64,000 bases of DNA from Okeania sp. KiyG1 (GTDB taxonomy: Bacteria; Cyanobacteriota; Cyanobacteriia; Cyanobacteriales; Microcoleaceae): NCBI RefSeq assembly GCF_014132355.1, contig NZ_BLZO01000091.1, forward strand, positions 203,171 to 267,170, in the 5' to 3' direction. The notes under the pieces are model-generated. The model had not been told where the DNA came from and made no database searches. It was given only the letters and a program-made list of their open reading frames with translations. Every line of letters starts with the position of its first letter. The first letter of the stretch is position 1. Shown here piece after piece: positions 49,079 to 64,000 of the stretch. The translations under genes were made by a program, and so were the position numbers.

Positions 49079-50071
49079 ATGACAAATCATAAATTTAACC
49101 TACCTAACTTTGATGACGCAGAAGATTTGCTTAATGATTTATTTGAAGCAGTAAGAAGCAAGGAAAGTGAATTAGCAGGAGGAGAAATTCAAGAGTTAAA
49201 AAGAGGAGCAACTGCAATTCAAAGATTGAAGGAAACTACTGTTAAATTTGGCAATCCTCGTAGTCGATTAATTCCTCTTACTGCAAAAGGTTTTGAAGCA
49301 AAGGGAATAGAGTTGAATTACGAAATTAAGCAGTTAATGAAGCAGTTTGATTTCTATTCTATGGTTGTGAGTATTGATCCAAAACCTCAATCAAGTGTTT
49401 TGATTTCAAAGTTAGAGTGTCAGCTTGATTTTAGTCCTCAAGGAAAAGAGGAGGTAATAGTACATCGTATTATCCCAAATAGTAAATGGCAAACGGTATT
49501 AAAGACAGGAGTCAACTTGAATTTGGGACTAGATGCCAACTTAGAAGTGGGATTTGGAGTTGATGTTTCTGAGTTTACTAAAATAGTTAATCTTCCTGAT
49601 TATGACAAGTTAAAGGCTAATATAGGAACTAACAATGAACTTAAAACATTTATTGTTTTAGATAGCTTAAATTATAGATTGGGTAAGTTTAATCTTTTTG
49701 CTCAGGGAGAAGATAATTCTCGGTGTTACTGGCGACTTGAAAAACCAGAAATTCAGGATAAATCTACTGTGAAATTTGACATTATTTTCAAAGTTCCTAA
49801 AGGATGGGAGTCTGTTGATTTAATTGGTAATGTCTGGATTGAACCAAGTATTGATTGGCTTAATGGTGAATTAATTGATGTAATGTCAACTTTACCAGAT
49901 CATTTAAAAAATTTGTTTGGGAGTAAAGATAAAGCAGCTAAGAGTTTTGCTGTTGGGGTAAAAGAAGAATGGATTGGTGAAAAGCAAATTATCTTACCTA
50001 AGAGGTTGTCTGAGAAGTCCCATTTGCTACATCCAAGCCCCCTAAATCCCCCAAAATTGGGGGACTTTTAA
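49079..50071 (+). CDS. Unknown beta-rich protein at the head of the CHAT/VMAP module
   Basis: About 330 residues from ATG 49079 (MTNHKFNLPNFDDAEDLL). I do not recognise the family. The N-terminal roughly 75 residues look helical and charged. From about 85 the sequence alternates as in a beta sandwich (VLISKLECQLDFSPQGKEEV, VDLIGNVWIEPSIDWLNGEL). No signal peptide or membrane helix is seen. It precedes the CHAT gene by about 210 bases in the same direction and is probably part of the same locus. Its last 24 codons (after ILPK) are encoded by the MITE at 50001-50154, so the native C-terminus has been replaced. Confidence 0.6.
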   Translation: MTNHKFNLPNFDDAEDLLNDLFEAVRSKESELAGGEIQELKRGATAIQRLKETTVKFGNPRSRLIPLTAKGFEAKGIELNYEIKQLMKQFDFYSMVVSIDPKPQSSVLISKLECQLDFSPQGKEEVIVHRIIPNSKWQTVLKTGVNLNLGLDANLEVGFGVDVSEFTKIVNLPDYDKLKANIGTNNELKTFIVLDSLNYRLGKFNLFAQGEDNSRCYWRLEKPEIQDKSTVKFDIIFKVPKGWESVDLIGNVWIEPSIDWLNGELIDVMSTLPDHLKNLFGSKDKAAKSFAVGVKEEWIGEKQIILPKRLSEKSHLLHPSPLNPPKLGDF

Positions 50072-50154
50072 CAGCTAATGGATTCTTGTTCCCCCCAGAA
50101 TTGGGGGGCTAGGGGGGCAAAATTCAGTATCAAAAAACTCTTCAGATATCCTCT
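50001..50154. mobile_element. 154-bp AGAGG-ended MITE overlapping a gene end
   Basis: AGAGGTTGTCTGAGAAGTCC at the left, CTCTTCAGATATCCTCT at the right (imperfect inverse). The interior carries the hairpin blocks CCCCAAAATTGGGG and CCCCCAGAATTGGGGGG. This is the simplest full-length copy of the family. Confidence 0.8.
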
Positions 50155-50202
50155 AAACCCTAGTGTCACTACGCGGAAGTCAGAAGTTAAAAGTATTGAT
50201 TT

Positions 50203-50270
50203 CAGGACTTACGCATAGACAGTAAATCTATTGAGGGCGAATGCCATTCGCCCCTACATAAAACCCTACA
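50203..50270. repeat. Partial CAGGACTTACGCA MITE in the CHAT gene leader
   Basis: Left end CAGGACTTACGCATAGACAG plus the hairpin GGGCGAATGCCATTCGCCC. The right end is missing. It ends 15 bases before the CHAT start codon, so it is probably transcribed in the leader. Confidence 0.65.
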
Positions 50271-50284
50271 TAATTTATCTGACA

Positions 50285-51688
50285 ATGAATCAATATTTTT
50301 ATCATATTATTGTTCCTAATGAGAATACGGTTAGAGTGAGAAAGTTAACTCCTCAGTTAGCTGACAAAGAGCAGTCAACAGGAAGGTTAAATCTCGCTAA
50401 AATGAACGATAAAATTAGAGAAATTATTAAAGATCCTGCTAACTTAAAAGGTGGACAAATTACTAAAGTGGGAGAAGCTTTGTTTGAGGCTTTGTTTGAT
50501 AGTGAATTAAGGGAAGATTTTTTAGCATACTATCAAGAAGTTGTTAAAAAGCAACAACAAATATTAGCAGTTATTTTAGAAATAAATGAGATGGCAATGC
50601 CAGAAGTGGTAGCTTATCCTTGGGAGTTAATGTGTTTACCTCAGAAATATAATCAGGGTGAAGTTTATTTTGCAACTGACCGTAAATTAAACTTTTACCG
50701 CTGTGGATATCAACTAGAAGAATCAGATAAACTATCTATTAATATTAATGAAGGAAAAAAACTAAAAATTGCTTTGGTTGTCTCTAAACCGACGGCTGAT
50801 TCTCAATTAAGTAATGTGGAATATCAGGGAGTACAGCAATACTTAAAACGAGTAGATAGTCAACAAGAGCAAGTGGAATTTATGCCTGTTATGGATGGTC
50901 TAAATTTCTATGATATTGTAGAAAAATTAGAAGCAGATAAACCGGATATTTTTCATTTTATTGGTCACGGTCAATTAGTTGAGAAGGAAGGAGAAGAAGT
51001 AGGGCAAGTTGCTTTAGTTAATGAATTGGGTGAAGCTGATTGGAAAGATGCTAGGATGTTTGGTCAATTGTTTAGTGGTAACACACCTAAAATTGTTGTT
51101 TTACAAGCTTGTGAAACAGGAAAGCAATCTGAAACTAATGCTTTTAGTAGTGTTGCTTCTCGTTTAATGTTGCAAGGAATTCCAGTAGTTATAGCTATGC
51201 AATATAAGGTTTCTAATCAAACGGCGATTAGTTTTGTGAAAGAGTTTTATGCAAAAATAATTGAAGGTAATTCTGTTGAAATAGGGGTGCAGAAGGCTCG
51301 GTTTAAATTAGGTATTGAGAATGGGTATGATAAACGAGATTTTGCTATTCCTGTGGTGTATATGAATGCTTTGGATGGTTATTTATTTTCAAAAGAATCT
51401 AAATATAAATCCTCAAATGAGAAAACAAATAGCTTCTCGAACTTAACAGATGCACAAAAAAGAAAACTTCGTGAAGAGATAGAAAGAGTATTAAGTGAGG
51501 ATAAACTAAGAACAATATTTATTGAATATGAAGAGAAATTTGGAAGTAACTTTTATCATCAAATTCCTGGAGATAATTATCGTACAAGATTGATTAATTT
51601 AATCAAGGAGCTAAAGAATCAAAAACTTATTCATGATTTTATTGAAATTGTTAGGCATGAGTATCCTAATGTTGCTCAAGATTTATAA
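50285..51688 (+). CDS. CHAT-domain protease with C-terminal effector-associated (death-like) domain
   Basis: This 467-residue protein starts at ATG 50285 (MNQYFYHIIVPNENTVRVRK). The caspase-related CHAT domain spans about 85-375. Its catalytic dyad is intact: H228 in FHFIGHGQL and C276 in VVLQACETGKQ, followed by ASRLMLQGIPVVIAMQYKV. The C-terminal roughly 80 residues (from LTDAQKRKLREEIERVLSED) are an all-helical domain nearly matching the N-terminus of the next gene. It fits the effector-associated domains (EADs) that recruit effectors by like-with-like contact in bacterial conflict systems. The protease probably cleaves a partner or kills the cell when recruited. Its substrate is unknown. 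Confidence 0.87.
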   Translation: MNQYFYHIIVPNENTVRVRKLTPQLADKEQSTGRLNLAKMNDKIREIIKDPANLKGGQITKVGEALFEALFDSELREDFLAYYQEVVKKQQQILAVILEINEMAMPEVVAYPWELMCLPQKYNQGEVYFATDRKLNFYRCGYQLEESDKLSININEGKKLKIALVVSKPTADSQLSNVEYQGVQQYLKRVDSQQEQVEFMPVMDGLNFYDIVEKLEADKPDIFHFIGHGQLVEKEGEEVGQVALVNELGEADWKDARMFGQLFSGNTPKIVVLQACETGKQSETNAFSSVASRLMLQGIPVVIAMQYKVSNQTAISFVKEFYAKIIEGNSVEIGVQKARFKLGIENGYDKRDFAIPVVYMNALDGYLFSKESKYKSSNEKTNSFSNLTDAQKRKLREEIERVLSEDKLRTIFIEYEEKFGSNFYHQIPGDNYRTRLINLIKELKNQKLIHDFIEIVRHEYPNVAQDL

Positions 51689-51724
51689 ACTGTACATAAA
51701 AAGATTAATTTAAGTATATAAAAA

Positions 51725-53237
51725 ATGAAATTAACTGATAACCAAAGAATTAAATTTCGTGAAGGAATTGAAAGTGTATTATCGGAGGATAGATTAAAAG
51801 GTATATTACTTGAACATGAAAATGAATTTGGATGTAATTTTTATAATCAAATTTCTGGAGGCGACTATCGAACTAGAATTATTAATCTGCTAAAAGAATT
51901 GGAGAATCAAAGAAAATTAAGAAATTTGATAGAGATTGTTAGTAAGGAATACCCATCAATTAAAGAACGTTACTTAATATATGCACAACTATCTTCTCTT
52001 ATATTTTTACTGAAAGAAATATTTAAAGGATATCAAAATTTTAGAGATTTTTTCAAGATTTTGACGATATAGATGAATTAGAAAATCATTTGTTAGAATT
52101 AACTGAAGAAAGTAATAATACTCAGCTTTTAAGTGATATAGATAATTCGCTTCTTAACTCTTATCCAGGTTTTATAGACTTTGTAGAAAAATATCTAGAT
52201 AAAATTTTGAATGCTCAAAATATCAAGGATAATCTCAAGCAAAAATTGAGAAAATGGATAGAAATAAATTGTCCAGATGCAGCAGTTACTCCCGAACAGC
52301 AAATATCATCTACTCTCCAAAGCTATCTTTTGATAACTATTTTCCCCATGGGAGGTAAAACCAAAAATAATTTAAAACCACTTCTTAATGTTCGAGCTGA
52401 GTTTATTGAGAATTGGGGTCAAACTCAAAATACTCAAGTTGAGCTAAAAAAAGAAGATATTAAGGAAAATGGATATTCAGAACAAGAAATTCCTAATATT
52501 ATTTATAAATTCATTGAGATAGTTCAAAATGAATATCTGTACTCCAAAGTGTTTGGAGGTAAACACTTTGATTTAAAAGTTGAATTATTTTTAAATAAAG
52601 AACTTTTTACTAAAGATTTTGAGTTTAAGATTCCTGATGCTCTTAGAGAAGACCAAAAAGCTATTTGTGAAGAATATTCTGTAATTTTACGTTCTTTAGA
52701 GCGATTATATCCAGAGCAAATAAATTGGCTAAATTCTTGCAATAAAAAGTGGGAGACAATAAAAAAAGAAACAAGAATAGCAGAAAAAAATTAGCTTTTG
52801 AAGATGAAGATAAATTAAGTACATTACTATCTAATTCACAACAAAGAAAACAGCTAGGAATTAAATTAGAGGATAAAATGATCCTAAAAATATCTTGTGG
52901 TTTACCTACATCTCAATCTAAAAGATTTCATTTATTTAAAATTATTTTAGAAAATGGTGTCCCTTTATGTTTATGGATAAAAAGTAAAACCAAGAGAGAT
53001 AAATTAGATGATTTGCATTATAACTTTCTCGTAAATAAACTAAATAATTTAATAGAAGTAGAAGATTTACAAGATGTCAACAGATTATATGCAAAAATTT
53101 TTGATATTCGTAAAAGACACCTTGCTGATACTTGTAAAAAAAGATGTTTAGGTTATCATTTAAGAATTTTGTGCGATTATACTGAACGAAGACCAATTAA
53201 TCTGCCTACTTTTAATCAACTAATAACTAATTATTAA
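51725..53237 (+). CDS. VMAP-type (vWA-MoxR-associated) protein with N-terminal EAD, two frameshifts
   Basis: Three consecutive frames form one gene of about 500 residues. Frame 1 (51725-52072) is an EAD (LTDNQRIKFREGIESVLSED ... DYRTRIINLLKELENQ ... IEIVSKEYPSI). At the T6 run near 52051-52056 one more T leads into FQDFDDIDELENHLLELTEE and frame 2 (to 52794), an all-alpha/beta middle. At the A7 run near 52783-52789 one more A gives RIAEKKLAFEDEDKL and frame 3. The C-terminus (GVPLCLWIKSK, then GYHLRILCDYTERRPINLPT) matches the C-terminal signature of VMAP proteins, which partner vWA and MoxR proteins in ternary conflict systems. The MoxR gene follows after 14 bases. Confidence 0.78.
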
Positions 53238-53251
53238 AAAAGGAGAAAGCA

Positions 53252-54412
53252 ATGGTTAACAATCAACCCCAAAACGATATTACAGAAAATCAGAAAAACT
53301 GGCTTTTTTTCTATGGTGATGGAAACAGTCATAATGTTAATATTGCTGACCTTCCTGACCCTCCACCTTGGCGAAAATTTAAAGAAATTAAACAACCTAA
53401 ATCAGAACAAACAGAAAAATCTCCAGAACTAATAGAACTTGAAAAACAATGGCAAACTATTCAAGATTTAGCAAATTCTGAGGCAAATAAACGTGGTATA
53501 GAAAAGGGTCAAAAATTCCGTATTTATTCCCCAGAAACAGAAGAAGATGATTGTCAAGAACCACTGGTTAATGTTGTGGATGCAGTAAATGCTGCAATAT
53601 ATTTACGACGACCTCTTTTAGTAACTGGAAATCCTGGTTCAGGTAAAACCTCTTTAGCTTATGCGATCGCTTATGAATTAAAATTAGGGCCAGTATTGAA
53701 TTGGGCCATTACAGCTCGTTCTACTTTGCAGGATGGACTTTATCGTTATGATGCGATCGCTCGATTGCAAGATTCCCAGTTGGATAAAAATCAACCACAA
53801 GATATTGGTCAATATGTGACGTTGGGTCCGGTTGGTACAGCTTTTTTACCATCTCTGCATCCGAGAGTATTATTAATTGATGAGATAGATAAAAGTGATA
53901 TTAATTTACCTAACGATTTGCTACACTTATTTGAAGACGGAAAATATGAGATTCCGGAATTAGTCCGTTGGGCTGATAAATCTCATACAATGGATAATAA
54001 TCAACAAAAATCAGTAAAAGTCCGCACGGAAGATATAGGTATTAAAGCTTCTATTATACGGGGAAGAGTTGATTGCTCCAGCTTTCCCATTGTGATCATG
54101 ACTAGCAACGGGGAACGAGACTTTCCTCCTGCTTTTGTGCGCCGCTGCTTGCGAATAAGAATGCCAGACCCAGATACAGCAGCTCTTAAAACTATTATTA
54201 ATGCTCATTTTCAGGATGAGGAACAAAGTGAGAATATGAAAAAAACAACGGAGCAACTCATTGAAGCTTTTTTAGAAAAAGAGGAACAGGAGCGAGCAAA
54301 CGATCAGTTATTGAATGCTATTTATATTCGTAATAATCTTAGTCCAGAAGCTTTTACTGATGATTTACAAGCTTTATTATTGAAAGGTTTATCAACTACA
54401 GATGAAGTTTAA
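53252..54412 (+). CDS. MoxR-family AAA+ ATPase
   Basis: This 386-residue protein starts after AAAGGAG. It has an N-terminal roughly 90-residue lead with a Pro-rich segment (NIADLPDPPPWRKF). The AAA+ core has Walker A LLVTGNPGSGKTSLAYA (about 120-136), Walker B RVLLIDEIDKSDINLPNDLL (about 206-225), sensor 1 IVIMTSNGERDFPPAF and an arginine finger region RRCLRIRMPDPD. MoxR ATPases act as chaperone-like remodelers with vWA partners. It lies between the VMAP gene (14-base gap) and the vWA fusion, completing the VMAP-MoxR-vWA trio. The last 50 residues are a helical lid. Confidence 0.9.
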   Translation: MVNNQPQNDITENQKNWLFFYGDGNSHNVNIADLPDPPPWRKFKEIKQPKSEQTEKSPELIELEKQWQTIQDLANSEANKRGIEKGQKFRIYSPETEEDDCQEPLVNVVDAVNAAIYLRRPLLVTGNPGSGKTSLAYAIAYELKLGPVLNWAITARSTLQDGLYRYDAIARLQDSQLDKNQPQDIGQYVTLGPVGTAFLPSLHPRVLLIDEIDKSDINLPNDLLHLFEDGKYEIPELVRWADKSHTMDNNQQKSVKVRTEDIGIKASIIRGRVDCSSFPIVIMTSNGERDFPPAFVRRCLRIRMPDPDTAALKTIINAHFQDEEQSENMKKTTEQLIEAFLEKEEQERANDQLLNAIYIRNNLSPEAFTDDLQALLLKGLSTTDEV

Positions 54413-54447
54413 CAGTACGTTCAATGATTAATAATTACCTTTCCTTG

Positions 54448-55042
54448 AGAGGTTGTCTGAGAAGTCCAATATGCTACATCCAAAGCCCCCGCGCATCCCC
54501 CAAAATTGGGGGACTTAAAGATAGCAAATTGACTCTTGTTCCCCCCAAAATTGGGGGGTTAGGGGGGCACCAAAGTTGGGGAGCTAGGGAGGCAAAATGT
54601 TGTCTGAGAAGTCCAATATGCTACATCCAAAGCCCCGCGCATCCCCCAAAATTGGGGGACTTAAAGATAGCAAATTGACTCTTGTTCCCCCCAAAATTGG
54701 GGGGTTAGGGGGGCACCAAAGTTGGGGAGCTAGGGAGGCAAAATGTTGTCTGAGAAGTCCAATATGCTACATCCAAAGCCCCCGCGCATCCCCCAAAATT
54801 GGGGGACTTAAAGATAGCAAATTGACTCTTGTTCCCCCAAAATTGGGGGTTAGGGGGCACCAAAGTTGGGGAGCTAGGGGGGCAAAATGTTGTCTGAGAA
54901 GTCCAATATGCTACATCCAAAGCCCCCGCGCATCCCCCAAAATTGGGGGACTTAAAGATAGCAAATTGACTCTTGTTCCCCCCAAACTTGGGGGGTTAGG
55001 GGGGCAAAATTCAGTATCAAAAAAACTTTTCAGATATCCTCT
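54448..55042. repeat. AGAGG-ended MITE expanded to four tandem 145-bp units
   Basis: It starts AGAGGTTGTCTGAGAAGTCC and ends CTTTTCAGATATCCTCT. The unit start TTGTCTGAGAAG occurs at 54453, 54600, 54746 and 54890, at spacings of 147, 146 and 144. Each unit carries CCCCAAAATTGGGG and CCCCCCAAAATTGGGGGG hairpins. Frames of 71-152 codons through it are artefacts. Confidence 0.88.
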
Positions 55043-55168
55043 GAAAACCCGATAATCAGCGATAGAACTCCGTTCCGCTTACGCGACCAAAAAACTTTAT
55101 CCCTTTTAACCTTTTGTTCCCTTTTACCTTCCTTCCACTAAAGTATAAGTATTCAAGCGGACATGATA

Positions 55169-55352
55169 TATAGCGTTTCTCAAATTGGTGAGTACAGTTT
55201 TAGATCCCCCCTAACCCCCCTTAAAAAGGGGGGAACTGTTTAACTTAAAAAGGAGAGAACTGCTTAAAAGAGGGGGAGGTTTCAAAGTCCCCCTTATTAA
55301 GGGGGATTTAGGGGGATCATAAATGTACCTCATCTTTATGAAAAATGCTGTA
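55169..55352. mobile_element. TATAGC-ended MITE upstream of the vWA fusion gene
   Basis: TATAGCGTTTCTCAAATTGG at the left pairs with ATGAAAAATGCTGTA at the right. CCCCCTTAAAAAGGGGGG hairpins fill the centre. It ends 14 bases before the start codon of the next gene, so it supplies most of the local upstream region. Confidence 0.7.
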
Positions 55353-55365
55353 ACCAGAGAAAAAT

Positions 55366-58300
55366 ATGACTGATAAATTTGACCGTTTAATTAGGTTATT
55401 AGAAAAAGAATTGAAGCTCACAGGAACAGAAATCACTGAAATTCTTTGGTTAGCAATGCAGCGTCAATCTCATGCTTCTACTCACAGCAAAAAAATACCT
55501 TCTGAGGATGAAACAACAACAGAAGAAAGTAATAAAGTACCACCGACATCTTCTTCTGTAATACCAGAAAATCCCACATATCCAAAAATTACTGAAAGGA
55601 ATTCTTACGCTGAAGTTGCTCCCAAAACTGATTCTGTATCTTCCAAGAAAAGTGATTTACCCATAAAAGTTCCTGATGTTTCTTCACTGCGTCACCCTCT
55701 TAAGATTGCTAGAGCTTTTCGTCCCCTCATGCAATATATTTCTTATGGTAAAGCAGATTTATTAGATGAAGAAGCTACTGTTGAAAACATTGCCGAATTG
55801 GAAGGAATTTGTGTTCCTATTCTCAAATCTCCCCTAGAACTTCAATTTGATTTAGCTTTAGTGGTAGATAGAAGTGATTCTATGATTTTTTGGCGACAAA
55901 CAACTCAAGAATTACAACAATTGTTCAAACGTTATGGTATTTTTCGGAATGTACAAACTTGGGGAATGGTGACAGATACCGAAGGAAAAATTCGCCTGAA
56001 ACAAGGAATTAAGCAAAACAGTTATTCCCATAATTTTTATTCTCCTCAAAAACTTATCGATCCTACTGGTCGTCGTTTGATTTTAGTGGTTAGTGATTGT
56101 GTTAGTAATATTTGGCGTAATGGTAAGGCTTTTTCTTTGTTAGAGAGTTGGGGAAAACATAATGTTGTGGCAATTGTGCAAATTTTACCAGAACGGTTGT
56201 GGTTAAGAACAGCTTTGAGTTTAGGTGCAATGGTGCAGTTAGATTGTTTACAACCTATTGTGCCTAATAGCAACTTATTTATCAGAGAAATTTGGTTTGG
56301 GAGCGGTGATAATTTACAAAATGGGATAAAAGTTCCTGTCTTTAGTTTAGAACCAGAACTGATAGAAACTTGGAGCGAAATGGTAGTAGGCAAAGGAACT
56401 ATTGGTGCTGGTGGTTTTGTTTTTTACTCTTCATTAAAACAAGAACAAAAGCAAATAGTTGAAAATACAGAAATAGAAAGTTTAACCAGTAAAGAACGGG
56501 TGTATAACTTTGAGATGAGTTCTTCAAAGATAGCACAAAATTTAGCGAAATTACTCTCTGCTGCACCTGTAATTAATTTACCTATTGTACGGTTAATTCA
56601 AAAAAATTTCCTCAGTGAGTCTCAACAAGTTCATGTAGCAGAGGTCTTTCTTGGCAATATTCTCAAACCTAAATCTTTGATTACTCCTGACACTAATTCT
56701 GATGAAGTTCAATATCAGTTTATTGATGAAGAAGTGAGAGATATTTTGCTTAAAAATAGTCCGAGAAAGAATTCTGAAGAGATTATTACTGTAATTTCTC
56801 AGGATTTTGCCAAGCGACTAGGTAAGAGTCTCCAAGAATTTTTGGCATTGCTGAAAAAACCTGATGAGTTAGAAAGATTAAAAACTGAAAATAATGTTGC
56901 AGATTTAGATATTAAATATTTTGCTACAGTCACAACTAAAGTTTTAAAAAGATTAGGAGGAGCTTATGCTCGCTTTGCTGAAGAAATAGAAAAATCTCAA
57001 GATGAAATCCCGGGTAATACTGCTACGTCAAAAGGTATTAATTTAGATAATTTTGAATCATTTGAATTTACAACTAACGTTGCTACTATTGCTAAATTAA
57101 ATACTATTTTATTAGTTGAAGACGAACAAAGGGTAATCCAAGAAGTATCAGAAAATTTATCATCCCAATATGACATTAACGTCATAGGAACAGATAGTGT
57201 CAATGAAGTTATTGAATTAGCAGAATTAGGTGAAATAGATTTGATTTTAATTAATTATGATTTACCTAACAGTCGCTACCAAGACAGACAAGTTAATGGA
57301 TTTGAAATGATCGGGATTTTGAAGGCTAATTATGATATTTCTCCAAACTTACCTATTGTTGGTTTCTCCTCTAGTATGAGACGTTTTTTACCTCTAAATT
57401 TAGCTGATGAATTTGTTAAACGTGGTGCAGATGGTTTTTATTCTAAAAAAGAATTGTTGCTTAATAATGATTATAAAAAGTTCGTTAACTATCTCGAAGA
57501 AATATTTAATCAAGCCATTGAAACTGCACACTATCTACCAGAAAAGAATTATGCGATCGCTATCGGTATTAACCAATATAACCATCTACCATCCCTACGA
57601 TATCCTTACGCAGGTATGTATGGAAAGGTGATGCAAGCTTTTACCAAGCAGCAAAACTTTAGCGAAGTTTTCTCTTTAACAGAAGGAACTTTTGTAGAAG
57701 TGGAGGAATTTTTGGCTGCGACATTTGAGAAGCTTTTTCTCTCCACAAAGGATAATTTGTGGTTTTTCTTTCGCGGTCACGGCCGCTTGACACAAGGTGT
57801 TGAATATCTCATGCTAGCAGACAGTAAAACTAAGGAAATTACAGAGACTGCAATTTCTCTTAATTCTATTGTTGAACGACTACTATCTTCAGGTGCAGGA
57901 AGGGTCATTTTATTCCTGGATATGGACAGACTCTCCAGTGAAATTTCTCTCTCCCCTACTTCTACTTTGCCGATAGAAGATGATCGAGGACTTATCATTT
58001 TCTATGCTTGTGAACAAAATACCGCAGCTTATGAAATTGAGCAACTTCAGCAGGGAAGCTTTACCTATGCTTTACAAGAAGCACTATCATCAACCCAAGG
58101 GAACTTGAGTATTAATCAACTTCAGCAGTTTTTGAGCGATCGCGTTCCTGAACTTAACCAACAGAATGGTCTAGGGATGCAAACTCCACAAACATTTATT
58201 TCTACTAGAAACCTGGGAGAATGGGTTCCCTTTCCTTCAAACTTTCAGGTTTTTCAGTATGCAACACCTACAGTCAACCGACGGGGAGAAATTATTAAGC

Positions 58301-59250
58301 AAGATACTAAGCTTGTCCAATATTTCACCGAAACCCTTGCAGACGGTATTGACCTAGAAATGGTAGCTATTCCTGGTGGTAATTTTACTATGGGTTCTCC
58401 TGTAGGAGAGAAAGATAGTAGGAGTTATGAACGTCCCCAACATTATGTAACTGTATCTCCCTTCTTTATGGGTAAATATCCCATTACTCAAGAACAGTGG
58501 AGAGCGATCGCTTCTCGAAAAGACTTGAAAGTAAATTTAGATTTAAACCCAGAACCCTCTCGTTTTAACGAACCATACCAAAATATAGATAGATGGCAAA
58601 GACCAGTAGAGCGGGTAAATTGGTATGAAGCAGTAGAATTCTGTGAAAGACTCTCAAAACTAACTCGAAACAATTATAGACTGCCGAGTGAAGCAGAATG
58701 GGAATATGCGTGTCGTGCTGGAACGATTACACCTTTTCACTTTGGAGAAACTATTACAGGAGAATTAGCTAATTATGATGCGTCAATAACTTATGCTGAT
58801 GAACCAGAAAGAGAATATAGAAAACAAACTACCCCTGTAGGCCAATTCCCTCCTAATGTCTTTGGATTATATGATATGCATGGGAATGTGTGGGAATGGT
58901 GTGCGGATGACTGGCATAATAGTTATGAAAATGCTCCAACTGATGGGAGTGCTTGGCTTGATAATAATAAAAGAGAAAACATGAATAATAGACCTCCCCA
59001 GGAATCAAGGTCTAACAACTTTTTCAAAAGGATGAGAAATACAGTATCAAATATTTTTAATCAAAATGAACCAGAGTCTAGCAGTAATGATAATGATGAA
59101 AAAGAAAAGTATACCGTGCTGCGGGGCGGTTCCTGGTACCTCAATCCTAATTACTGCCGTTCCGCTTTTCGCAACGACAGCATTAGGCGCGTCATCCACG
59201 ACGACCTTATTGGTTTTCGTATTGTATGTTCTGGCGGGAGAACGGTTTGA
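55366..59250 (+). CDS. vWA - receiver - caspase-like - FGE/C-type-lectin fusion (DGR target)
   Basis: 1294 residues. The first 35 look helical (DRLIRLLEKELKLTGTEITE). A vWA-type domain of the SAV_2336-related class spans about 120-360, with metal-site D168-S170-S172 (DRSDSM) and LILVVSDCVSNIW. A receiver domain spans about 580-715 (ILLVEDEQ), but the phospho-acceptor position is N630 (DLILINYDLP). A caspase-like domain spans about 725-955, with H805 kept (FFRGHGRL), but the Cys position is D854 (LFLDMDRL). A formylglycine-enzyme/C-type-lectin domain spans about 990-1294 (GGNFTMGSPVGE, RLPSEAEWEYACRAG, DMHGNVWEWCADDW), with a roughly 45-residue acidic/Asn insert and a hypervariable end. It should pair with MoxR and VMAP as a sensor-scaffold. 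Confidence 0.9.
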   Translation: MTDKFDRLIRLLEKELKLTGTEITEILWLAMQRQSHASTHSKKIPSEDETTTEESNKVPPTSSSVIPENPTYPKITERNSYAEVAPKTDSVSSKKSDLPIKVPDVSSLRHPLKIARAFRPLMQYISYGKADLLDEEATVENIAELEGICVPILKSPLELQFDLALVVDRSDSMIFWRQTTQELQQLFKRYGIFRNVQTWGMVTDTEGKIRLKQGIKQNSYSHNFYSPQKLIDPTGRRLILVVSDCVSNIWRNGKAFSLLESWGKHNVVAIVQILPERLWLRTALSLGAMVQLDCLQPIVPNSNLFIREIWFGSGDNLQNGIKVPVFSLEPELIETWSEMVVGKGTIGAGGFVFYSSLKQEQKQIVENTEIESLTSKERVYNFEMSSSKIAQNLAKLLSAAPVINLPIVRLIQKNFLSESQQVHVAEVFLGNILKPKSLITPDTNSDEVQYQFIDEEVRDILLKNSPRKNSEEIITVISQDFAKRLGKSLQEFLALLKKPDELERLKTENNVADLDIKYFATVTTKVLKRLGGAYARFAEEIEKSQDEIPGNTATSKGINLDNFESFEFTTNVATIAKLNTILLVEDEQRVIQEVSENLSSQYDINVIGTDSVNEVIELAELGEIDLILINYDLPNSRYQDRQVNGFEMIGILKANYDISPNLPIVGFSSSMRRFLPLNLADEFVKRGADGFYSKKELLLNNDYKKFVNYLEEIFNQAIETAHYLPEKNYAIAIGINQYNHLPSLRYPYAGMYGKVMQAFTKQQNFSEVFSLTEGTFVEVEEFLAATFEKLFLSTKDNLWFFFRGHGRLTQGVEYLMLADSKTKEITETAISLNSIVERLLSSGAGRVILFLDMDRLSSEISLSPTSTLPIEDDRGLIIFYACEQNTAAYEIEQLQQGSFTYALQEALSSTQGNLSINQLQQFLSDRVPELNQQNGLGMQTPQTFISTRNLGEWVPFPSNFQVFQYATPTVNRRGEIIKQDTKLVQYFTETLADGIDLEMVAIPGGNFTMGSPVGEKDSRSYERPQHYVTVSPFFMGKYPITQEQWRAIASRKDLKVNLDLNPEPSRFNEPYQNIDRWQRPVERVNWYEAVEFCERLSKLTRNNYRLPSEAEWEYACRAGTITPFHFGETITGELANYDASITYADEPEREYRKQTTPVGQFPPNVFGLYDMHGNVWEWCADDWHNSYENAPTDGSAWLDNNKRENMNNRPPQESRSNNFFKRMRNTVSNIFNQNEPESSSNDNDEKEKYTVLRGGSWYLNPNYCRSAFRNDSIRRVIHDDLIGFRIVCSGGRTV
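59119..59240 (+). other. Diversity-generating-retroelement variable region 1 (VR1)
   Basis: A 122-base stretch aligned with 62295-62416. Codons 59137-59208 hold the differences. The 3' constant part (ATTGGTTTTCGTATTGTATG then TTCTGGCGGGAG) is identical in both copies. Twelve codons differ in amino acid and all keep the same third base (C or T), as expected if AAC and AAT codons in a template had their adenines mutated. The product ends ...IGFRIVCSGGRTV, the exposed lectin-fold surface. Confidence 0.85.
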
Positions 59251-59335
59251 CAGTTATCAGTCATCAGTTATCAGTTATCAGTAACAGTTTGAGAGTTGGC
59301 GGTTTCCTCACAAAACTAAGGATTAAGAAAAGCTT

Positions 59336-59691
59336 ATGAGTGTAAGTAACAGTATTGTTTACCAGAAAGCTTACCAATTTGCTATTAGAATTGTCAAAGC
59401 TTATAAATATTTGACTGAGGAAAAAAAGAATATGTATTATCCAAACAACTGTTGAGAAGTGGAACATCTATTGGAGCCAACATAGCAGAAGCTAATGGAG
59501 GCATATCTCAAGCTGATTTTAGGGCGAAAATGTCCATAGCTTACAAAGAAACCCTGGAAACAAAGTATTGGTTATCTCTTCTAAAAGATACTGACTATAT
59601 TGAAGAAAAAGCATTTGAAAGTATTCATCAAGATGCAGATGAGATTGGCAAAATCTTATTTTCCATCATTAAAAGGACTGAAAAAAACTGA
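59336..59691 (+). CDS. Four-helix-bundle protein (23S intervening-sequence type), frameshifted
   Basis: Starts at ATG 59336 (MSVSNSIVYQKAYQFAIRIV) and breaks at the A7 run near 59420-59426 (EEKKNMYYPNNC then stop). One more A gives EEKKEYVLSKQLLRSGTSIG and continues to 59691. The conserved motif RSGTSIGANIAEA and the helical end YKETLETKYWLSLL are typical of this roughly 118-residue family, often found near repeats and conflict genes in cyanobacteria. Function is unknown. It is flanked by tandem TTATCAGT units (59252-59282) and ACTGATGACTGATAACTGAT units (59687-59716). Confidence 0.8.
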
Positions 59692-59725
59692 TGACTGATA
59701 ACTGATGACTGATAACTGAAAAGCA

Positions 59726-60061
59726 ATGGATAACTTAGTTCAATATCGCGCTATTATTCAACAGGAACTCAAAGAATATACAGAAATTCCTTATGCTCAC
59801 GGGGATTTACAATGCCGTTTAATTATTAGTGAGGATAGGAATGATTTTTTATTAATTACTCAAGGATGGGAAAATGACATACAAGTTCATGGGTGTTTAG
59901 TTCATATAGAAATTATTGGGGATAAAATCTGGATACATCGGGATGGTTTAGAGGATGGAATAGCATCCGATCTACTTAGAGCAGGTATTCCTAAAAGTCA
60001 AATAGTCTTGGGTTTTCATCCCCCAGATGTGCGAGTGTTTACAGAATTTGCAGTCAATTAA
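59726..60061 (+). CDS. xisI: XisI-type protein
   Basis: This 111-residue protein carries the XisI family pattern: MDNLVQYRAIIQQELKEYTE, YLITQGWE-like LLITQGWENDIQVHGCLVHI, DKIWIHRDGLEDGIASDLL, IPKSQIVLGFHPPDVR and FTEFAVN at the end. XisI was named as a control factor for fdxN-element excision in Anabaena. Most homologues lie far from any excision site and usually follow xisH. No xisH is found upstream here, so this is an orphan. Its last codons are included in the tandem duplications that follow. Confidence 0.88.
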   Translation: MDNLVQYRAIIQQELKEYTEIPYAHGDLQCRLIISEDRNDFLLITQGWENDIQVHGCLVHIEIIGDKIWIHRDGLEDGIASDLLRAGIPKSQIVLGFHPPDVRVFTEFAVN

Positions 60062-60062
60062 T

Positions 60063-60526
60063 TATAGCAATTCCCACAGCTATGAGGTACGTTTACGATC
60101 CCCCTAAATCCCCCTTGAAAAGGGGGACTTTGAAGACTCCTCCTTTTTTAAATAGTTCCCCCCTTATTAAGGGGGGTTAGGGGGGATCTAAAACAGAATT
60201 TGCAGTCAATTAATTATAGCAATTCCCACAGCTATGAGGTACGTTTACGATCCCCCTAAATGCCCCTTGAAAAGGGGGACTTTGAAGACTCCTCCTTTTT
60301 TAAACAGTTCCCCCCTTATTAAGGGGGTTAGGGGGGATATAAAACAGAATTTGCAGTCAATTAATTATAGCAATTCCCACAGTTATGAAGTACATTTACG
60401 ATCCCCCTAAATGCCCCTTTTCAAGGGGGACTTTGAAGACTCCTCCTTTTTTAAACAGTTCCCCCCTTATTAAGGGGGGTTAGGCGGGATATAAAACTGT
60501 ATCTCATAGATTAAAGAAGTGCTATA
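60063..60526. repeat. TATAGC-ended MITE triplicated with the 3' end of xisI
   Basis: Three units of about 150 bp. The segment CAGAATTTGCAGTCAATTAA, which is the xisI stop region, recurs before the second and third copies (about 60195 and 60343). Each unit has CCCCTTATTAAGGGGGG and CCTTGAAAAGGGG hairpins. The right end GCTATA lies at 60521-60526. Confidence 0.85.
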
Positions 60527-60564
60527 CTAGACACTAATTAATCTAAAATAGAGCCAAAAATCTT

Positions 60565-60915
60565 ATGAAAAACGTTAAAATCGACGACCTAGAAAAACAA
60601 ACTTTATTAGCTCAAAAAGAACTGATTTCTATAGAGCATGAAGGAAAAACAATTGGTTATTATTATCCAATAGGCGATCGCGAAGTAGCAAAAAAAGCCA
60701 AAGAAGAACTTGACAGAATTACGGAAAAAACATTACATCCCACTGGATTAACAGAAGAAAGAATAGCAGAGTTGCGTAGTAATCTTGATTACGAAGCAGC
60801 CAAAAAAGCAGCAGAAAAACTTGACATACTTATGGAACAAATATTAGCTCAGACAGGGTTAACAGAAGATGAATATGTATCAATGTTTATGAATGCAACT
60901 GAGGATGAGGAATAA
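60565..60915 (+). CDS. Antitoxin-like protein paired with a PIN toxin
   Basis: This 116-residue, charged, mostly helical protein has a beta start (EKQTLLAQKELISIEHEGKT then IGYYYPIGDR) and an internal duplication: AKKAKEELDRITEKTLHPTG and AKKAAEKLDILMEQILAQTG, each followed by LTEERIAEL or LTEDEYVSM. Its stop overlaps the ATG of the PIN gene at 60915, a classic toxin-antitoxin layout. It resembles the VapB-side proteins found with cyanobacterial PIN toxins. No ribbon-helix-helix motif is obvious. A fragment similar to its first 20 codons lies at 61451-61512. Confidence 0.75.
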   Translation: MKNVKIDDLEKQTLLAQKELISIEHEGKTIGYYYPIGDREVAKKAKEELDRITEKTLHPTGLTEERIAELRSNLDYEAAKKAAEKLDILMEQILAQTGLTEDEYVSMFMNATEDEE

Positions 60916-61332
60916 TGCATCTAGTTGTTGATACAAACATTTTAGTAGCTGAACTGCTAAGAAAGCGGGGAAAAGCTTTAATTAATTCGCAAAACTTTGA
61001 ATTATTAAAAGATGAAAAATGAAGCTGAATACGAATTACAAAAGCGCGTTTCCATAAGAATTAATAAAGGTAACTTAACTCCAGAACAGGGACAATTTCA
61101 ATTAGAACTAGCTCTAGGACTAATTAATAATAGAATTACCACTGTCCCTTTATCTGATTATCAATCATTTGAAGCAGAAGCAAGAAAGCGTATTCCTAGA
61201 GACCCTAATGATTGGGAAACAGTTGCCCTAGCGTTAGCGTTACCTGCAGCAATTTGGACTGAAGATTATGACTTTTTTGGTTGTGGATGTCCGACTTGGA
61301 CTACTCAAACTTTATTGCTGCAAATTAACTAA
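60915..61332 (+). CDS. PIN-domain (VapC-like) toxin, frameshifted
   Basis: Starts MHLVVDTNILVAELLRKRGK, with the first catalytic Asp in VVDTN. The frame stops after ELLKDEK at the A5 run near 61015-61019. One more A reads DEKNEAEYELQKRVSIRINK into frame 61012-61332, which carries the rest of the PIN fold (RIPRDPNDWETVALALALPA and the late acidic site IWTEDYDFFGCG). PIN toxins are metal-dependent RNases that cleave tRNA or mRNA. About 138 residues is normal for the family. If the shift is real, the antitoxin is an orphan. Confidence 0.82.
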
Positions 61333-61538
61333 CCAAAGCGGGCAAGATGCCTGCACTAGAAGATAAAAAAGAAGTACACACATCGCGGGCAAGATGCCCG
61401 CACTACAAGATTTTCAACATTTACCTTCTACATTATTTACCCTAAATATTATGAATAATCTTAAATTAAACGACTGAAAAAAACAATTTTTATTAGCTCA
61501 AAAAATTGATTAGACTTTGTATTGTCAGAATATAAATT
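61333..61538. other. Spacer with GCGGGCAAGATGCC repeats and an antitoxin-gene fragment
   Basis: Two copies of GCGGGCAAGATGCCYGCACTA (61338 and 61386) form hairpins. Bases 61451-61512 resemble the first 60 bases of the antitoxin gene at 60565 (ATGAATAATCTTAAATTAAA, TTATTAGCTCAAAAAATTGA) with a stop, a decayed duplicate. Confidence 0.6.
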
Positions 61539-62423
61539 ATGCTGAAAACACTTCCAATCAAACGTCAAAGCAAAAGGTTCCGAGGTTACAGGGAATATAT
61601 TGATAAAGTTCCTCTAGAAATGGTATTAATCCCTAATGGAACCTTCACAATGGGCGCGCCAGAATCTGAAGAGGGGAGTAGCAGCAGAGAAAGACCCCAA
61701 CATAATGTAACTATCTCGGCGTTTCTAATGGGGCGTTACCCTGTTACTCAAGATCAATGGAGAGCGGTCGCGCAAGCGGAACGGAGTTCTATCGCTTCTC
61801 GAACAGACTTGAAAGTAAATTTAGATTTAGAAATAGATCCTTCTTATTTTAAAGAACCATATGAAGGTATTGATAGATGGCAAAGACCAGTAGAGAATGT
61901 GAATTGGTATGAGGCGGTAGAATTCTGTGAAAGACTCTCAAAACTAACTGGAAAGAATTATAGACTGCCGAGTGAAGCAGAATGGGAATATGCCTGTCGT
62001 GCTGGAACGACTACACCCTTTCACTTTGGAGAAACCATTACAACAGACTTAGCTAATTATCAAGGGACGGACAATAAAGAAATGAAATGGTCAGGCTCTT
62101 ATGGGGAAGGACTCAAAGGAAAATATCGGCAACAAACTACACCTGTAGGCTATTTTGATGTAGTTAACTCTTTTGGACTAAGTGATATGCACGGAAACGT
62201 TTGGGAATGGTGTACAGATGAATGGCATGATAATTATGAAAATGCTCCTACTGATGGCAAACCTTGGCTAAATGGTGATGATAGTCGTTCACCGCTGCGT
62301 GGCGGTTCCTGGTTCAACAATCCTGATTTCTGCCGTTCTGCGTATCGCTACTTCGACGTTAGGCGCGACATCCACGACTTCAATATTGGTTTTCGTATTG
62401 TATGTTCTGGCGGGAGTGAATGA
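61539..62423 (+). CDS. Stand-alone FGE-sulfatase/C-type-lectin domain protein (DGR target)
   Basis: This 294-residue protein is a close paralogue of the last 300 residues of the vWA fusion (55366-59250). Shared blocks include RWQRPVE, NWYEAVEFCERLSKLT, RLPSEAEWEYACRAGTTTPF and SDMHGNVWEWCTDEW. It lacks the Asn-rich insert of the fusion but has an 8-residue extra piece (VAQAERSS) created by a small repeat within a HIP1 site. No signal peptide. The C-terminus from RGGSW on is a variable region. In DGR proteins this fold is a diversified ligand-binding lectin and lacks formylglycine-generating activity. It may bind the same upstream signalling proteins. Confidence 0.9.
   Translation: MLKTLPIKRQSKRFRGYREYIDKVPLEMVLIPNGTFTMGAPESEEGSSSRERPQHNVTISAFLMGRYPVTQDQWRAVAQAERSSIASRTDLKVNLDLEIDPSYFKEPYEGIDRWQRPVENVNWYEAVEFCERLSKLTGKNYRLPSEAEWEYACRAGTTTPFHFGETITTDLANYQGTDNKEMKWSGSYGEGLKGKYRQQTTPVGYFDVVNSFGLSDMHGNVWEWCTDEWHDNYENAPTDGKPWLNGDDSRSPLRGGSWFNNPDFCRSAYRYFDVRRDIHDFNIGFRIVCSGGSE
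62295..62416 (+). other. Diversity-generating-retroelement variable region 2 (VR2)
   Basis: Aligns without gaps to VR1 (59119-59240). The reading is RGGSWFNNPDFCRSAYR then YFDVRRDIHDFN and IGFRIVCSG. Apart from the twelve amino-acid-changing codons, only three positions differ: CGG/CGT, TCC/TCT and GCT/GCG. Confidence 0.85.
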
Positions 62424-62619
62424 AGTCAGAAGTCAGAAGTTTGTTTGCGCAGCATTCCGCAGGAAAGTCAGAAGTTTTGGAATAGGGAAATATTGATTCG
62501 TCGGCGGGAGGTTTTGAATAAGTGAAATATATAAAAAAGGGTAACGAACCCAAAGATTTAGCAAAATTTAAAGCATCTGCTTGAACAGGAGAAAAAGTCA
62601 ACACACTATCTACAACCAT
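62424..62619. other. Spacer with GTCAGAA tandem and TTTGCGCAGCATTCCGCAGG repeat
   Basis: The small repeat at 62442-62466 matches one found at 3490, 20955 and 33975. No gene. It separates the convergent FGE and histidine-kinase genes. Confidence 0.5.
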
Positions 62620-64000
62620 TCACCCATCATCAAAATCAAGACACTCTTTAATAAAAGTTTTCAACTGTTTAAGCTGGAAACTATTCGCTAGTTGCAAAAT
62701 TTCTTGGGCAAAAGGAGAAAAAGTCACATCCGATGCTAGAAGCTCTTCAGCTACCTCCACAACACTTTGAATATCACCATCTTCTACTAAAGTGAGTAAT
62801 TCTTGTAAGACTTCCATAGCTGGAGCAACAATTTCTTCACTTTTTCTAACCTCAGTCACCTGAGCTGATGCTGTGCTCTGTTGCTCATAAACCCACTCTA
62901 AGTCGAGACACTGCTGTAAAATTTCTAATAATCTGTCAGTCTCTATAGGTTTGGGCAAAAATACATCCGCTCCAGTTTCCATTGCCTCTTGTTGATTACT
63001 TTCAAACACACTAGCAGAAGAAGCGATCGCCACCACATCCTTCAACTTTTCCGAACTGCGGATATATTTAAGCAATTCATAACCGTTCATTACTGGCATC
63101 ATTAAATCAGTAATCACCACATCCGGTAGAGATACCATCATTTTTTCTAGAGCTTCCTTTCCATTTTTCGCTTCACTCATTTCAAAGCCAAGCATTTCTA
63201 ACAAGCTCACCACCACCGAGCGATTTTCCGAACGATCATCAACAACTAAAACACGGTATTTTTTACCTCGATAACCCAATATAGTTCCCAGGTTGAGAGT
63301 TCTCGAAGCCATTGTCCATTCTTGTGCTTCTGGAACTTCCAGAGCGAACCAGAAAGTACTGCCTTTACCTACTTCACTCTTTACTTCCAGTTCACTATCC
63401 ATAAGTTTGACAATCTTTTGACTAATAGCTAACCCCAAACCCGTGCCTTCTGTCTGTTTTTGGCGATCGCCCACCTGTTCAAATGGCAGGAATATTTTCT
63501 GTTGTTGTTCTGGGGTCATACCTACTCCTGTATCTTTGACTTCAAAGTGCAGGCGATATCCATCTGACAACTTTTGTGTGGTGACACAAAAGGTAACGCT
63601 ACCAATATCGGTAAATTTAATCCCATTGCTCAGGAGATTGATCAATACCTGCTGTAGTCGTTTTTCGTCAGCACGAATGCATATCGGTAAATTTTCATCA
63701 GGTGCATAGTAAAAATTTATGCCTTTTTGTTCGGCTCGAATGCGACATATTTCCGCCACTCCTTGGAGGAAAGAGGGAAAATGAAACTCCCTTGTCAAGA
63801 GGTCGAGTTTGCAGGCTTCAATTTTGGAGAGGTCGAGAATATCATCGATCAACTTCAGCAAGTGAAGGCCACATTGTTTGATAATATCAAGATCTTTTTT
63901 TTCTTCCTCACTAATGGTTTCAGAATGGTGAAGAATTTGAGCATAACCAAGAATACCGTTAAGGGGAGTGCGGAGTTCATGGCTCATATTGGCAAGAAAT
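62620..64000 (-). CDS. Hybrid sensor histidine kinase / response regulator (N-terminus outside window)
   Basis: The visible 459 residues start within FLANMSHELRTPLNGILGYA, so the sensor part lies beyond the right edge. The phospho-accepting His is in MSHELRTP. The HATPase domain follows at about 105-225 (NLLSNGIKFTD, DTGVGMTPEQQQKIFLPFEQ, GTGLGLAISQKIV, GKGSTFWFALEVP). A receiver domain spans about 248-365 (VLVVDDRSENRSV, phospho-Asp in VITDLMMPVMNGY, Lys in FLPKPIE). The last 90 residues are helical and acidic and end in KECLDFDDG, with no clear His-phosphotransfer motif. It is typical of the large cyanobacterial hybrid kinases. The signal sensed cannot be told. Confidence 0.92.
   Translation of the reverse strand, partial: FLANMSHELRTPLNGILGYAQILHHSETISEEEKKDLDIIKQCGLHLLKLIDDILDLSKIEACKLDLLTREFHFPSFLQGVAEICRIRAEQKGINFYYAPDENLPICIRADEKRLQQVLINLLSNGIKFTDIGSVTFCVTTQKLSDGYRLHFEVKDTGVGMTPEQQQKIFLPFEQVGDRQKQTEGTGLGLAISQKIVKLMDSELEVKSEVGKGSTFWFALEVPEAQEWTMASRTLNLGTILGYRGKKYRVLVVDDRSENRSVVVSLLEMLGFEMSEAKNGKEALEKMMVSLPDVVITDLMMPVMNGYELLKYIRSSEKLKDVVAIASSASVFESNQQEAMETGADVFLPKPIETDRLLEILQQCLDLEWVYEQQSTASAQVTEVRKSEEIVAPAMEVLQELLTLVEDGDIQSVVEVAEELLASDVTFSPFAQEILQLANSFQLKQLKTFIKECLDFDDG

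Follow-up and report, generated by a model that had tools for sequence, protein, structure and literature searches.

Variable regions of diversity-generating retroelement type at the ends of two FGE genes of Okeania sp. KiyG1, and a search for their template

Two variable regions in one locus

We analysed a stretch of 64,000 nucleotides from the marine filamentous cyanobacterium Okeania sp. KiyG1 (contig NZ_BLZO01000091.1, positions 203,171 to 267,170 of the forward strand), here called the window, in which two genes with C-terminal FGE domains end in what are very probably variable regions (VRs) of a diversity-generating retroelement (DGR). The genome assembly comprises 10.98 Mb in 198 contigs and is 92% complete; its contigs are given C-numbers (the window is on C91) and the relative genomes G-numbers. 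The VRs and the genes that carry them are the following.

59119..59240, + strand: VR1, the 3' end of a long SAV_2336-N (vWA-like)/receiver/caspase/FGE gene
62295..62416, + strand: VR2, the 3' end of a stand-alone FGE gene
55366..59250, + strand: variable protein of 1294 amino acids with SAV_2336 N-terminal domain, Peptidase_C14 caspase and C-terminal FGE domain ending in VR1
61539..62423, + strand: variable protein of 294 amino acids, an FGE domain alone, ending in VR2

Both proteins match the FGE-sulfatase domain PF03781 and have the VR at its end, in agreement with the target domain named in the initial annotation, which had been made from the sequence without database searches. The response-regulator match of the 1294-residue protein is just under its cut-off, and its vWA assignment is based on the SAV_2336 N-terminal match and homology, with no Pfam VWA match. 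The SAV_2336 N-terminal domain contains DRSDSM, which we take to resemble the vWA MIDAS motif.

Realignment confirmed the pattern first seen by eye: the two 122-base ends, both starting at a codon boundary, align without gaps, twelve codons encode different amino acids through changes confined to the first and/or second base, the third being kept in 12/12, and three further differences are silent and at third bases (CGG/CGT, TCC/TCT, GCT/GCG). A thirteenth amino-acid difference, AGA/AGT at the third base, straddles the end of the 122-base stretch. Upstream in the same two genes the third base is kept in only 31 of 63 aligned codons with different amino acids, and at that rate retention in 12/12 has a chance of ~2e-4. 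The pair shows what is expected on the target side of a DGR, namely a 3' hypervariable block of ~100–150 bases with first- and second-position changes in NNY codons.

We conclude, with a probability of about 0.9, that both regions are genuine DGR variable regions at the 3' ends of two FGE/C-type-lectin sensor genes and were rewritten in the past from a shared template; their DGR origin as such is near certain. An error-prone reverse transcriptase (RT) together with Avd would have copied a shared template repeat (TR) with AAC or AAT at most of ~17 codons, random bases would have been placed at template adenines during copying, and the cDNA would have replaced the VRs of the window genes and of seven or more others, at a time that is recent by the standards of the genus. 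The copying step was presumably mutagenic homing, and a sensor role of the proteins is likewise presumed.

Third-base retention in the VR family

Nine places in the genome match VR2 (VR2 included), each of them inside one of 31 FGE-sulfatase (PF03781) matches. Among codons with different amino acids, the third base is the same in 338/409 cases in the VR and in 1096/2493 upstream; the corresponding values are 151/156 and 520/1307 for G001, and 384/390 and 1233/3263 for G011. This comparison was made on a separate selection of 55 genes, each having 120 or more amino acids upstream, and gene pairs within one genome are not independent, so that the Fisher value is descriptive only and no formal probability is claimed. 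The initial annotation had attributed the changes to adenine mutagenesis of an AAC/AAT-rich template, and had named paralogues with third-base variation equal to that at the variable codons as evidence to the contrary; the paralogues do not show this, and the attribution to a DGR is borne out. Silent sites are more uniform in the VRs than in the gene bodies, and the VR silent sites are younger than the genes that carry them, because third-base identity is higher in the VR than upstream. The silent-site retention in the VRs of G001, where five of seven VRs have 17/17 third bases, and of G011 means that rewriting there must be recent; the retention is less good in G002 and G017.

In 28 VRs from six genomes of the genus, 17 codon positions vary at bases one and two. 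The consensus third base is present in 436/476 cells of these variable codons, with C or T in 462/476 and A or G in 14/476, and VR1 and VR2 each have the family third base at 17/17 variable codons. For the 17 degenerate scaffold codons of the same VRs the value is 393/476, lower because of the VR edges. The 28 VRs were kept from 39 strings, the two of C43, the one of C11, three of G004:C2, four of G002:C228 and one of G002:C112 being dropped for another scaffold or length; three VRs of 36 codons had one codon each removed by hand for alignment. The initial annotation had placed the start of the unmutated 3' end at ATTGG. A conserved arm is indeed present, but the ATT ahead of GGTTTTCGT is variable among the 28 VRs (ATT, TTT, GTT and others), and the unmutated arm therefore starts after the A of this triplet. 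The suggestion that the silent differences reflect two templates or later drift fits the nine VRs of the genome, which are mixed at silent scaffold positions (TCT 6, TCC 3; GCG 6, GCA 2, GCT 1).

Ordinary paralogues under diversifying selection, with no DGR involved, would also be expected to vary strongly in amino acids at a binding surface. Changes driven by selection should involve third bases as well, yet codons ending in A or G make up only 14/476 at the variable positions, and third-base retention at changed codons within the genome is about double that upstream. These data refute selection alone, which we regard as hardly credible, unless the bias at third bases has some other origin. 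The comparison of third bases at changed codons thereby offers a simple, template-free way to recognize orphan DGR targets.

VRs of the window-type scaffold were read in 13 relatives, with 2–10 per genome in the set examined. Fifty relative regions gave 41 VR strings (G005:C33:453106 was left out, and G001:C433 and G001:C223 gave no usable string), of which 38 were added to the 28 to form a set of 66, one additional 36-codon VR having had a codon removed. Similar scaffolds would permit existing VRs to be shuffled among paralogues by recombination or gene conversion, and runs of at least five identical residues are slightly in excess (7 versus 3.0 expected; shuffle maximum 7), although three of the seven belong to near-identical pairs. 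There are three such pairs among 2145, two of them orthologues within the genus, and apart from these the 66 strings show roughly the independence of shuffled strings: 7/17 residues or more are shared by 45 of the 2145 pairs (35 expected; shuffle maximum 48), a number that includes the three near-identical ones. Shuffling is thus an improbable source of the diversity.

Two observations on VRs of relatives were made in passing. Of the ten dispersed VRs of G011 (in L311–L321), seven have GTT, CTT and GTC in common at three scaffold positions and mostly carry NNT in place of the NNC found in the genus of the window; the scaffold GTT in question is found in 0/56 other VRs. Very long frames are present on G002:C228 (L213; 2418 codons, four VR-like stretches) and G003:C401 (L216; 1615 codons, two such stretches).

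Search for a cognate template

The template inferred from the VRs was compared with the own assembly (all 25 candidates scored), with 60 relatives (the best 14 candidates or fewer per genome) and with 291 genomes of the order (the best three or fewer per genome). Matches in the own assembly were the nine VRs, the template of a DGR cassette on C43 (76%, the best match outside a gene), other FGE gene ends (C39, C43, C11) and short matches, so that no cognate template for the window VRs was found among the 25. An exact 21-base match on C89 was rejected as an unrelated CAA/CAC-rich stretch. Among the candidates of the 60 relatives, matches of at least 100 bases stayed at or below 84% (the own genome aside), and the assemblies of the 13 relatives with window-type VRs, G001 and G011 included, showed no matching template. 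The 83% match in G039 proved to be a real template located behind an RT; it differs from its own VR at 16 adenines and one other position. Partial matches of 92% on G050:C9 (59 bases) and G012:C3 (37 bases) were set aside as VRs at gene ends.

The only match among the scored candidates of the 291 genomes that was better than the own VRs, and the only one above 90%, came from Nostoc sp. UHCC 0926, whose plasmid pn2 (NZ_CP117770.1) carries a TR that is 91.8% identical to the inferred template over 110 bases. The gene order on pn2 is AAA ATPase, vWA-FGE, FGE, Avd, RT and template; the AAA, vWA-FGE, FGE order is common to both loci, and pn2 continues into Avd, RT and TR, which are absent from the window. 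Amino-acid identity to the pn2 homologues is 43% for the MoxR-like ATPase of the window, and 57% for the stand-alone FGE protein; for the fused protein it is 51% in the FGE half and 33% in the N-terminal half. Over the first 110 bases, 15/19 and 17/23 mismatches between the Nostoc TR and the two window VRs are at adenines. The remaining mismatches (4 and 6 per 110 bases) are not at adenines, and the Nostoc TR is therefore a relative of the window's template and not the template itself.

Related cassettes occur on plasmids of Fischerella, Microcystis and Anabaena. In the four plasmid cassettes, that of pn2 included, which have annotated full-length RT genes, 117 of 119 mismatches between eight VRs and their templates are at TR adenines and two elsewhere, with a one-base gap in one of the eight VRs. 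Adenine-specific hypermutation has also been reported for targets of Nostoc punctiforme, according to the available text of PMC12691664. Viral contigs gave 0 matches to each of two degenerate template patterns and none to the FGE protein, and among phage records the template matched only Microcystis phage MaMV-DC (two records, 73%).

Reverse transcriptases and Avd

No DGR RT or Avd was found inside the window, as had been noted from the sequence. The genome has 36 RVT_1 matches, and all with a readable motif are RTs of group II introns or other kinds except the one on C43 (some fragments were unread); with a profile built from 12 DGR RTs, C43 alone scores above the group II level. The C43 cassette consists of an FGE gene, Avd (NF033474; 117 bits, cut-off 80), RT (GNLTSQ, YVDD) and a template. 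Between this template and the C43 VR, 142 bases contain mismatches at 14 adenines and a single G. The C43 RT is split into two frames by a 1722-bp insertion sequence that carries a DDE transposase, ends in perfect 14-bp inverted repeats and is flanked by a 7-bp target duplication. A second Avd is on C11 (95/104 positions matched), next to an FGE gene and with no RT; neither of the two is in the window. The gene after the C11 Avd is presumably a TnpB.

Rewriting of the window VRs in trans by the C43 or C11 cassette has in its favour that these are in the same genome, with the same target family and with Avd present. The C43 RT being interrupted and C11 having none, and the C43 template aligning to the window VRs over only 33–35 bases with different scaffold codons, this explanation is very improbable and largely refuted by the scaffold mismatch. 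The initial annotation had concluded that RT and Avd must act in trans. This is not supported as stated, since the sole RT is interrupted and stands beside an unfitting template, the C11 Avd is without an RT, and no template was found.

In the relatives, neither the DGR RT profile nor the Nostoc plasmid RT revealed a DGR RT in G001, G002, G003 or G005 by score (for G001 and G002 also by motif). G004 has an intact DGR RT, beside a template of another scaffold, and broken or partial RTs are present in G017, G022, G026, G035 and G011:C32. Weak Avd-profile matches in relatives may be members of the PF05635 family. Matches on G002:C216, G002:C232, G022:C648, G029:C103 and G032:C278 (E 4e-18 to 1.5e-37) were not counted as DGR RTs on account of their QGAV(I/V)SP motif. 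Those on G002:C216 (L229) and G022:C648 (L243), with QGAVISP, score so well with the profile that confusion with DGR RTs is possible; both have a part that we take to be Cas1-like, i.e. they are presumably RT-Cas1. The DGR cassette of G004:C2 (L220 4919–7581) contains two template-like repeats. The repeat directly after the VR has 10 mismatches, all at adenines, and is the better fit; the template behind the RT has many non-adenine mismatches.

Recent rewriting between orthologues

The orthologues on C85, G002:C244, G001:C219 and G005:C33 have upstream amino-acid identities of 89–94%. At the nucleotide level ~2–6% of bases differ in the 400 upstream of the VR and at most 9% in the last 100 (3–9% in windows of up to 800 bases). 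Per 122 bases of the VR, C85 or G002 differ from G001 or G005 at 24–27 positions and G001 from G005 at 23. VR divergence is far greater than upstream divergence, and the VRs of this group were therefore rewritten after the lineages split, C85/G002 excepted. The likely orthologues of the window genes in G001 and G004 (80–86% upstream) share 3–5 of 17 variable residues and 14–17 of 17 third bases. This pairwise comparison used a looser filter (29 entries, 406 pairs, including duplicates of G003:C401).

Several observations weigh against rewriting from a shared template, or against its recent date. The template was inferred from the VRs themselves, its independent support being the match to the Nostoc TR, which itself has the non-adenine mismatches given above. 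No cognate template was found in the own assembly, nor was an intact DGR-clade RT (GNLTSQ), the sole one being interrupted and the assembly incomplete. One of the nine family genes (C66:313–1023) holds two stops. The contrast between VR and upstream is weak in G002 (third base the same in 37/65 and 182/444, respectively) and in G017 (49/73 and 193/516). The third base is kept in 280/308 cases at the 11 inner scaffold codons, equal to the variable codons; changed and unchanged codons inside the VR hold it equally, which is as expected of copying from one template. The VRs of C85 and G002 differ at 2/122 bases with 17/17 residues identical and are frozen, and those of C144 and G001:C49 are nearly so (14/17 residues identical). 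Downstream of the stop the C85 orthologues are also strongly divergent, with gaps, and the VR is therefore not their sole divergent stretch. The initial annotation had named the absence of RT and template from the complete genome as grounds for rejecting a DGR; the assembly comes close to this, and the DGR origin nonetheless stands, since what the signature preserves is past rewriting, and since the assembly is incomplete.

Loss or absence from the assemblies of the mutator

The cognate Avd, RT and TR, which are neither at the window locus nor found in the assembly, have either been lost or lie on DNA, such as a plasmid, that is missing from the assemblies. For the rewritten VRs of relatives without visible machinery, an unassembled cassette and several recent losses both fit.

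Loss would mean that the cassette disappeared independently in several lineages and that the VRs are frozen specificities under ordinary selection, to which we give nearly an even chance. Decaying cassettes are visible in the interrupted RT of C43, the Avd without RT on C11 and the broken or partial RTs of the five relatives named above, and two orthologue pairs, C85/G002 and C144/G001:C49, are frozen or nearly frozen. A precedent is all3226 of Nostoc PCC 7120, with remnant TR/VR homology and no RT nearby in the available text of PMC7517822. Against loss, the C85 orthologues in G001 and G005 were rewritten after little upstream divergence; with no DGR RT seen in these two genomes, several recent losses would be needed.

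A cognate Avd-RT-TR cassette on a plasmid or other unassembled DNA of the living strain might instead still rewrite the chromosomal VRs in trans, at what we judge to be somewhat below even odds. The sole template match above 90% among the candidates of the 291 genomes is on a plasmid, as are four related cassettes, and the VRs of G001 and G011 have a fresh appearance, although neither assembly showed a cognate template. Metagenome-assembled genomes, of which G004 is one, often lose plasmids in binning. On the other side, no cognate cassette was seen in any of the six genomes of the genus, the silent scaffold positions of the own genome are mixed, and similar templates also occur on contigs not known as plasmids (G039, 83%). 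Nostoc sp. UHCC 0926, with 7 contigs and 100% complete, has one long chromosomal VR, which misfits the plasmid template, with 7 mismatches away from adenines and a gap of 6 bases, so that orphan VRs occur even where plasmids are assembled; action of its plasmid in trans was accordingly discarded for this VR.

It is also conceivable, though unlikely, that in this family of filamentous cyanobacteria the banks of sensor genes are chromosomal, while the mutator of their binding ends is no fixed component of the chromosome: a plasmid-borne or otherwise transient DGR cassette would arrive, use its own template to rewrite many targets in trans and then disappear. Such a visitor might leave lineage-specific imprints at non-adenine positions, as in G011. 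A decision between loss of the mutator and its location on unassembled DNA would reveal whether a resident or a visiting retroelement maintains repertoires of this kind.

A VMAP ternary locus and its known counterparts

The genes preceding the fused vWA-type/FGE gene are the following.

50231-51688, + strand: CHAT protein with sub-cut-off EAD6 match, putative effector of a ternary system
51725-52072, + strand: open reading frame with sub-cut-off EAD1 match, putative adaptor of the ternary system
52090..53237, + strand: VMAP region in two overlapping frames, 52090-52794 (VMAP-M12; VMAP-C sub-cut-off) and 52749-53237
53252..54412, + strand: MoxR-like AAA ATPase (AAA_5/AAA matches), predicted member of the ternary system

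A MoxR AAA protein, a vWA-type protein and a VMAP protein are all present at the locus. Because CHAT, VMAP and MoxR-type genes occur together with the sub-cut-off EAD matches, the locus is, as judged from its gene content, assigned to the VMAP ternary conflict systems with DGR-diversified sensors, of the kind in PMC7159879 and PMC10907252. The conflict (anti-phage) function of the VMAP ternary family is itself a published prediction. In the relative G004 (region L218) the VMAP region is a single frame of 385 codons; with its split frame, the ternary system of the window may be impaired.

DGR targets in cyanobacterial conflict systems have already been published; the window locus is a well-supported case of a known system, and the missing machinery is its interesting part. 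In the text available of Kaur et al. 2020 (PMC7159879), VMAP/MoxR/vWA ternary systems with a DGR-diversified FGS domain likewise combine VMAP, MoxR AAA and a vWA-type/FGE fusion. The fused protein of the window has additional caspase and receiver domains and its VMAP frame is split; moreover, the window locus is without Avd, RT and TR, whereas the DGR-associated cases described there have TRs nearby or elsewhere in the genome. The remote variable proteins of cyanobacterial DGRs treated by Vallota-Eastman et al. 2020 (PMC7517822) are, in the portions consulted of that paper, similarly dispersed CLec/FGE-type proteins with vWA and other signalling domains, and it likewise includes plasmid DGRs (Anabaena sp. 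90, Fischerella NIES-4106) and a paralogue that retains remnant homology and has no RT in its vicinity. The main text of that paper makes no mention of Okeania, and our case differs in that nine VRs share a scaffold with no template found in the assembly. Thiohalocapsa PB-PSB1 (Dore et al. 2024, PMC10907252), as far as its accessible text describes, has several DGR loci with transposon-damaged components, incomplete loci and remote targets, some of them explained in trans; its incomplete loci have a matching TR or an intact structural variant, neither of which was found here. A literature search of limited scope for Okeania with retroelement gave only the word's mention in a reference list.

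Other features between and around the target genes

A search of window positions 50000-64000 with Rfam at gathering scores gave no match. Three genes lie between the two targets. The first (59336-59690) belongs to PF05635, the four-helix family of 23S rRNA intervening sequences, and its frame is split near a poly-A run; the second is a XisI gene (PF08869, 59726-60061), and the third a PIN-domain gene (60916-61332; PF10130 from 61012) whose start is apparently in another frame. Tandem arrays occupy intergenic stretches at 54452-55006 (146-base unit, 3.8 copies) and 60041-60497 (152-base unit, 3.0 copies). The likely orthologues of the stand-alone FGE gene are longer, with 428 codons in G004 (L218 8753–10036) and 427 in G001 (L204), and the window gene corresponds to their FGE part only; the start of the G004 orthologue is one that we take to be TIR-like.

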